Part shown: positions 55,969-57,170 of the stretch, in pieces
Numbering within the stretch: position 1 is the first letter of the stretch
How the letters are laid out: each line of letters begins with the position of its first letter
DNA from: Bremia lactucae
Lineage: Eukaryota; Oomycota; Peronosporomycetes; Peronosporales; Peronosporaceae
NCBI RefSeq assembly: GCF_004359215.1
Contig: NC_090627.1
Location: forward strand, 895,317-959,316
Direction of reading: 5' to 3'
Length of the DNA stretch: 64,000 nt
Translations under genes and position numbers: made by a program
Notes under the pieces: model-generated
What the model saw: the letters and a program-made list of their open reading frames with translations, nothing else
The model's database searches: none
Told to the model about the DNA's origin: nothing

Positions 55969-57170
55969 ATGGTTAACAAGTCCATGCGGTACGCGAATAG
56001 TGCGGCGCCTTCGGCTGCGGTTCATGCAGCCGCGGGCGACGCATTATTGTCTCTTGCGGTAGAGGTTCCGTCTGCCGCAGTGTCATCTTCTCCCGCAACT
56101 CAAATGTTGCGGGTGCACGTGGTGATACACCACGTGAATGCGACCTCTCTTTGGAGGTCGACTACGAATGCGACTCGGACGAAACGGCCGACTCGGGGAG
56201 ATTAGAAAAGTCGCCTGATCATCGTCAGGCGGCTGACTATAAGCCTTCGAATGAGGGGGCTCATTCGAGTAGACGTCCTGGTAGCATTCGCTACAGCATA
56301 TTCGGTTCCGACGATGAGGATGAATCCTCATCGCCTGTACCGTCTCTCGTGCCGTCACTCGCACATATTTCTGTGCGCAGTGATGATCGAACCGTTTATC
56401 ATGTTGCTTCAGAACCTCCAGCAGATTCTTTTCACTGATTCAGGAGCGATGGCGTAAGCCATCGTAATAAAAGTTTTTGCTTCAGTGGGTACCACTCAGG
56501 GGATCGTAGCCACTAAAATATCTCGTCTTGCCCCTAAGAAAAAGCCATGGCTTTTGCCCGAACAGCTAATTAATAGCTTTTGCTAAGACAAGCTAATTAA
56601 TAGCTTGTCTGGAACGGCTAATCCTCACAATAAATATCCCTTACTATTGCAACAAAGCAACATGTCCTTCATCTCTGTGCAAAGAACTGTCGCGCTGAGC
56701 AAATTTTTTATCTCAATATTTTTCAGGCATCGATGGTATAGTGGCAGCCTGGAGCGCGTTTATTTGCAATGTCAAAGACATTGGACGCGAAGCCTGGCTT
56801 CAAAGACTTTACGCGATTCGCGTTAAGTTTAAAAAAACGAGCTGTTACCGGTGTTAGGTATAAATTGCATTGGTTGTCTCGTGAGGCAGGACTTCCGTGC
56901 CTCACACGAGGTGATCCCTGTCCGTGTTGTGTTGACAACACAAAGCAAGTAAAAGGCAATGTATATTCCCTCTCTTCGCCCTGGGGAAGGACTCGCATCT
57001 TATCGAGATGCGCGGTGCGATTGACGTTTTGCAATCGATTTACAAGCGCCAGGGCCGCATGTTTACCGATGGATCTTCGGATCCATTGGATAGGTCTCGT
57101 CATACTGACGGACGAGGCCCTTAACGTCAAAAATCAGCTGGAAACGAGGCTCCCAGCTGTCATGTGAAGG
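55969..57170 (+). pseudogene. antisense ORF between pol and 3' LTR, copy A3
   Basis: On the strand opposite to pol, frames 55969-56205, 56151-56438, 56605-56826 and 56769-57167 follow each other with small shifts. Contents in order are VNKSMRYANSAAPSAAVHAA, the acidic part FGSDDEDESSSPVPSLVPSL, KKKPWLLPEQL, and MSKTLDAKPGFKDFTRFALS followed by YKLHWLSREAGLPCLTRG. The last part corresponds to ARSKMHRLSREAG of element B. It is the longest family A version and gives the best idea of the ancestral protein. It is not recognised. Confidence 0.6.

Follow-up and report, generated by a model that had tools for sequence, protein, structure and literature searches.

Most descriptions of antisense accessory open reading frames (ORFs) in long terminal repeat (LTR) retrotransposons come from plants, and what these frames do is unsettled (as summarized in PMC7264820). 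The closest comparators are the aORF-3R frames of plant Ty3/gypsy elements, which include Retand (TRP28, PF04195), maize Grande gene23, rice RIRE2, and PvRetro13 (as presented in PMC7264820 and PMC11963269). Here we analyzed a window of 64,000 nucleotides from the downy mildew Bremia lactucae (NC_090627.1, positions 895,317 to 959,316), in which chromodomain-bearing gypsy elements carry, on the strand opposite pol, sequence encoding a protein of about 500 to 560 amino acids. Like the plant aORF-3R, it is antisense to gag-pol, lies near the 3′ LTR, and is present in many copies, and for the plant frames, whose function is likewise unsettled, a nuclear role has been proposed as it is here. Its anatomy is that of an aORF-3R, a kind known in plants and fungi, and the fungal element Boty provides an example outside plants (PMC7264820), to which our gene is likened by description only. 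The differences from the plant frames are that the host is an oomycete, that pol here has a chromodomain whereas Retand belongs to a non-chromovirus lineage, and that the gene here reaches into pol at its chromodomain end; neither PMC7264820 nor PMC11963269 uses the word "overlap" in its main text. TRP28/PF04195 is not among the Pfam matches of 54 members of the protein family at E ≤ 1, and a PF04195 search of this genome gave at best 16.7 bits against a cut-off of 26.2. An earlier note on this window, made from the letters alone, had been right in pointing to antisense ORFs in plant gypsy elements, at least as PMC7264820 and PMC11963269 present them.

Two further comparators are useful. The HBZ gene of the human retrovirus HTLV-1 is also antisense, with a promoter in the 3′ LTR (PMC7264820) and a nuclear product (PMC11963269), a likeness drawn without sequence comparison; antisense promoters are reported for both maize Grande and HTLV, the latter in the 3′ LTR (PMC7264820). 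Chronos elements are oomycete gypsy elements with an integrase-linked chromodomain (PMC5348765), and ours resemble them in host group and in having the chromodomain at the integrase end of pol. Chronos has a dual RNase H, the second being archaeal-type, whereas in the window copy A3 about 100 amino acids separate the gypsy RNase H from the integrase zinc finger (H2C2), and the one frame examined matched RT_RNaseH families only. The word "antisense" is absent from the main text of PMC5348765, and a literature search covering titles and abstract openings, with subscription journals mostly outside it, found no antisense ORF described in an oomycete element.

The explanation we favor, with a probability of roughly 0.6 for the whole, is that these elements carry an accessory gene that overlaps pol and has a product that would tune the element itself from within the nucleus. 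We regard it as nearly certain that the antisense frame codes for protein under selection, now or until recently. The sequence itself shows the frame and where it lies, the selection acting on the core, and the overlap with pol. In copy A3, whose pol is on the minus strand, the gene occupies 55969..57674 on the plus strand as judged from open frames and tblastn, and it is broken, lying in several frames with in-frame stops. It starts with an ATG at 55969, about 116 nt from the inner edge (55852) of the 3′ LTR (55412..55852). Residues 42-558 of P0001, a 559-residue predicted protein from ENA, match in pieces at 56106-57674 of the plus strand (tblastn). The pol chromodomain lies opposite the gene at 57096..57236 on the minus strand, found by tblastn with the chromodomain of genomic copy L027, the frame of which matches PF00385 with 46.6 bits (cut-off 25.1); chromodomains are present in A1, A3, and B as well. 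The antisense gene extends about 650 nt into pol, tail to tail, with the chromodomain opposite it, and in tblastn residues ∼346-559 lie opposite pol, including the chromodomain. Since the antisense frame is matched through the chromodomain stretch, it overlaps pol and does not sit between the chromodomain and the 3′ LTR, where the earlier note had placed it; the end that note gave for A3, 57170, was too short, as the match continues to 57674. The part of the antisense protein that faces the chromodomain is a linker with little conservation.

The five places at which reverse-strand sequence had been noted (A1, A2, A3, B, and a scrap) all gave an antisense match to P0001 in tblastn, and in A1, A3, and B the sequence is antisense to pol and beside the 3′ LTR, as had been claimed. 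The further claim of an ORF in each copy stands as regards antisense sequence and fails as regards a single open ORF, since no window copy has one: the longest ATG frames are 132 amino acids (A1, A3) and 191 amino acids (B), and the matching stretches are spread over several frames and interrupted by as many as 10 in-frame stops. The same arrangement was found in the genome at large (115.9 Mb, 220 contigs). A search with the antisense core protein was limited to the best 150 of 5617 candidates, all with E ≤ 2.1e-52, and by hand count the core is free of stops in 70 of them; a separate PF00385 chromodomain search was limited to the best 150 of 4669 candidates. Across these two best-150 lists, a chromodomain and a core lie no more than 5 kb apart in 25 cases; the strands are opposite in all 25, the core is downstream of the chromodomain in 24, and the spacing is 74-125 nt in 23. 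As a measure of how regularly copies carry the frame, the figure of 23 among the best 150 chromodomain matches is limited by the cut of both lists at 150 and by the finding of copies through the antisense sequence itself.

Selection was examined in three sets of copies, with A (29 copies) and B (27) defined by DNA similarity and C (22) by core protein score. Set C comprises L061-L082, drawn from the 30 best-scoring of the 150 core places, and is thus set by that choice and not by a tree; pieces of its copies match P0001 at 52-99%. Four copies were dropped before the selection and stop counts, L026 (the same place as L005) and L033, L034, and L043 (with the match pattern of L032 and L042), and the DNA-only divergence alignment has 77 rows, one further A row having been removed by filters. 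Stop codons make up 0.4-1.4% of the antisense frame and 1.9-10.2% of the other two frames on the same strand, and in bins of 20 residues the antisense frame is open all along (0-1.8% stops in A, 0-2.4% in B). One pol-strand frame is open opposite residues ∼340-559 (up to 0.8% in A and 2.3% in B) and closed in most bins opposite residues 160-335. As a separate observation, in A copies (e.g., L001-L030) this pol-strand frame is also nearly free of stops (0.2-1.6%) opposite P0001 residues 1-159, a stretch that lies beyond the end of pol and contains no known pol domain; within C it shows no clear selection (ratio of nonsynonymous to synonymous polymorphism, pN/pS, 0.86, interval 0.66-1.11).

The codon-position tests point to protein-level selection on the core. 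Private mutations, taken as post-insertion, served as an internal control together with the opposite strand and the chromodomain, and in A and B they are evenly spread over codon positions. Core substitutions present in at least three copies are distributed over the three positions as 24/20/40 in A (p = 0.018) and 34/25/50 in B (p = 0.017), a third-position excess that is kept in A when the threshold is at least two copies (p = 0.015). Net divergence of the core by antisense position is 0.295/0.233/0.444 for A-B and 0.325/0.263/0.480 for B-C, with the third position highest in 2000/2000 bootstraps, and 0.015/0.019/0.052 for A-C, with the third position highest in 99.3%. By the coordinates of L027, the second antisense codon position lies opposite the third position of pol, and opposite the chromodomain it is this pol third position that is highest, at 0.131/0.334/0.107 for A-B and 0.143/0.317/0.122 for B-C (≥99.8% of bootstraps). 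In the C-terminal segment predicted to form a coil, A-C divergence is 0.013/0.016/0.032, with the third position highest in 91.3% of bootstraps. Codon pairs taken from tblastn give the same pattern for the core and the chromodomain.

The dN/dS check suggested in the earlier note gave a concordant result for the core, with the signal in the antisense codon positions and an antisense-frame pN/pS within C of 0.22, a value biased low because C was picked by core protein score. The other segments, which played no part in the selection of C, have antisense-frame values of 0.57 (N-terminus), 0.96 (opposite the chromodomain), and 0.58 (coil, 0.50-0.69); in the pol-strand frame the corresponding values are 0.86 opposite the N-terminus, 1.86 for the core, 0.53 for the chromodomain, and 0.99 for the coil. 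Net pN/pS, uncorrected, is 0.47 for the core in B-C and A-B and 0.34 in A-C, and 0.28 for the coil in A-C. For the core, these two kinds of test thus bear out the claim that a shared position with kept amino acids suggests selection. Stop density, codon-position pattern, and the homologues in two other species go beyond what chance would give.

Protein searches started from an open frame as it stands in a genomic copy (L017:1115-2074, 320 amino acids), which retrieved 191 proteins at E ≤ 0.001; a short profile retrieved 334, and each listing covered the best 120. P0001 is among the homologues listed, as are Peronospora matthiolae proteins of 529 amino acids, which fall in 90%-identity clusters with 524 and 1335 members, and a single Hyaloperonospora arabidopsidis protein. 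P0001 belongs to a young family of this genome, because three recent copies match it at 98.7-99.6% over residues 1-150 or 1-278. In the full-length AlphaFold model the N-terminus is disordered and is followed by a helical core (pLDDT 83-92 over residues 201-280), a helix at 319-342, a disordered linker, and a single helix at 429-536 of about 108 residues (pLDDT mostly 82-93 over 431-540), which we interpret as a coiled coil; when the core is modeled alone (P0091), pLDDT is 74-95 over residues 41-150. Among the 78 proteins of at least 480 amino acids, P0001 included, a W[GDE][DE]xCxxC motif is present in 56, and K[KR]x[KR], resembling a nuclear localization signal (NLS), is found within the last 40 residues in 62 and before residue 200 in 63. 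The acidic Ser/Pro stretch described in the earlier note is present (FGSDDEDD in P0001), but P0001 has equal numbers of acidic and basic residues, 9 each, over positions 100-165.

No Pfam family was matched above its cut-off; with 54 members at E ≤ 1, no family occurs in more than 3, and the best single value is 0.0009, for CENP-Q in one member. PDB-sequence and fold comparison (Foldseek) yielded no convincing match, so that the statement that no known element has this domain holds as far as Pfam, PDB sequences, and fold comparison go. HBZ has a bZIP coiled coil, and in this the oomycete protein differs, having no bZIP match: no bZIP family is among the Pfam matches, first for 5 proteins and then for 54. 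The H. arabidopsidis relative (P0007), which has no Pfam hit, bears the UniRef name "Core-binding (CB) domain-containing protein." Such a name would fit a host or foreign gene that was captured in antisense, whether by transduction or as a nested element; a piece of a tyrosine-recombinase core-binding domain would be one example. We consider capture unlikely, though it may have happened anciently, as the Pfam matches of the 54 proteins include no recombinase family and Foldseek lists no recombinase (with no significant match overall), while the opposite strands of 25/25 pairs and the 74-125 nt spacing of 23 (in the best-150 lists) also speak against it, and the keeping of codons in A, B, and C counts against hitch-hiking.

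The NLS-like motifs, the coiled coil, and the helical core suggest a nuclear, self-associating protein. The product may form a dimer or oligomer in the nucleus and tune the element's own life cycle, most likely by regulating its transcription or chromatin state, whether by repression or de-repression, and, as a second-ranked role, by helping the integration complex. This role is modeled on proposals for the plant antisense ORFs and HTLV-1 HBZ, and a nuclear regulatory role for the protein, suggested by such sequence features, is put forward tentatively, as somewhat short of an even chance. A structural accessory, such as an Env-like or particle protein, would be the alternative to a nuclear regulator, and coiled coils are frequent in both kinds of protein; it is nevertheless an unlikely one given the NLS-like motifs near both protein ends and the improbability of a transmembrane segment, as the highest 19-residue Kyte-Doolittle mean among the 78 proteins is only 1.36. 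Since the gene has its 5′ end next to the 3′ LTR, transcription would start from an antisense promoter in or beside that LTR, as reported for maize Grande and HTLV. Because of the overlap with pol, sense and antisense mRNAs could pair over about 650 nt, and an added RNA effect is possible. Taken further, the 3′ LTR transcript might act solely as RNA, pairing with gag-pol mRNA into double-stranded RNA for small-RNA silencing or copy-number control, with the ORF incidental. Antisense promoters and noncoding antisense RNAs do occur in other retroelements (as described in PMC7264820), but the codon-position and pN/pS signal of the antisense frame in the core, together with predicted homologues of 529-559 amino acids, makes this the least probable of the alternatives, and we retain a protein-coding accessory gene.

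Several results weigh against the favored explanation, in addition to the downward bias of the core pN/pS within C. The N-terminus shows no third-position excess within A (19/22/21 for substitutions in at least three copies), and in B the core excess is not significant at a threshold of two copies (p = 0.215). The positive control is uneven, in that opposite the chromodomain there is no pol third-position excess within A or within B (p 0.22-0.72), and in A-C (0.002/0.009/0.019) antisense position 3, and not 2, is highest there (81.5% of bootstraps). When B is compared with A or with C, the coil gives no clear signal for a frame (A-B 0.351/0.310/0.269), and its net pN/pS is 0.91 in B-C and A-B. 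The homologues come from predicted genes, the AlphaFold model of the full-length protein is weak as a whole (mean pLDDT 62.9, pTM 0.37), NLS-like motifs are short and common, and a scan of the A3 LTRs for promoter motifs returned nothing informative.

The coil results bear on the possibility that the C-terminal coil is a by-product frame opposite pol and that the functional protein ends near residue 340-370. It would account for residues 421-559 being without antisense-frame signal between B and A or C, and in 4/22 C copies the longest open frame does stop at residues 366-369, although not at one common site. Against this, stop density is 0.37% over 3220 A codons, the within-C pN/pS of 0.58 in the antisense frame compares with 0.99 on the pol strand, and the C-terminal tail RKKxRTDGT is kept in P0001 and in 3/5 P. 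matthiolae proteins checked; we therefore judge a by-product coil unlikely. With a coil belonging to the gene, the selected strand would alternate over about 1.7 kb, from antisense core to pol chromodomain to antisense coiled coil, the last step being seen within family C only. The chances are about even that this is an oomycete chromodomain gypsy lineage with its own TRP28-less and bZIP-less accessory family, overlapping pol tail to tail and with such an alternation. In that case, plants, animal retroviruses, and oomycetes would have arrived convergently at antisense nuclear accessory proteins, and the C-terminal part might have arisen by overprinting pol.

A selected example from oomycetes, without TRP28 and with a measurable two-strand overlap, would support convergence and be a clean case for evolutionary tests. 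With 58.6% of the Bremia lactucae contig sequence consisting of gypsy elements (as given in PMC6570648), a protein that tunes such elements could bear on downy mildew genome expansion. In addition, at least 1,859 database sequences in the two P. matthiolae clusters, named only "uncharacterized protein," belong to this retrotransposon-linked family. In the present genome, the 460 LTR-side bases of a young copy match 39 others, among the best 40 of 2283, at 94-95% identity and with near-equal scores, which is a sign of a recent burst. Open frames of at least 400 residues occur in 5/22 C copies (longest 549) and in none of A or B. Family C more widely (L061-L085) has near-identical LTR-side sequence and signs of recent amplification, and beside one of its copies lies a 193-residue open frame (L062:815-1393) that is possibly a host gene.

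In A1 the broken antisense gene is at 14181..15638 on the minus strand (tblastn), opposite a pol chromodomain at 14507..14659 on the plus strand, identified by tblastn and also in the genome-wide PF00385 search (C18:909823-909975), and the 3′ LTR is at 15853..16272 (blastn to the A3 LTRs and to an LTR at 40767-41183). Comparison with A3 (blastn) reveals an internal inversion in A1 at 13608-14149, which is why its final 37 antisense residues are on the pol strand, at 13606-13716 (+). A2 retains a remnant at 27424..27983 on the plus strand, covering P0001 residues 28-216 (tblastn), and the rest of its antisense gene was probably lost by deletion; the pol match picks up again at 27981 (blastn). 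In B the broken gene is at 37142..38402 on the minus strand (tblastn, P0001 residues 135-553), with a 191-residue ATG frame at 37875-38450 and the pol chromodomain opposite it at 37591..37737 on the plus strand (tblastn). A probable 3′ LTR of B at 38967..39450 and its partner at 31215-31690 form an 85.3% direct repeat flanking the B pol region. The scrap of antisense core is at 25077..25414 on the plus strand (tblastn, P0001 residues 163-283), and part of it (25068-25248) matches B at 38309-38123 (blastn).

The two LTRs of A3 (55476-55852 and, at the 5′ end, 62431-62807) are 84.3% identical, and 55412-55848 matches another A-type LTR at 40748-41183. The A-type LTR (55412-55852) and the presumed B LTRs (31215-31690, 38967-39450) have no blastn match at E ≤ 1e-10, and families A and B are accordingly well separated, in agreement with the divergence noted earlier. 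Elsewhere in the window, a Copia element remnant (469-3940) includes a frame at 469-2058 with RVT_2 and SH3_retrovirus and, at 3236-3940, a gag-like ORF with a zinc knuckle identified by eye. Host genes lie between the elements at 42685-46481 and 51886-53357 and encode a DUF4833 protein, CDC45, PCMT, a prefoldin subunit, and an adaptin-binding p34-like protein.
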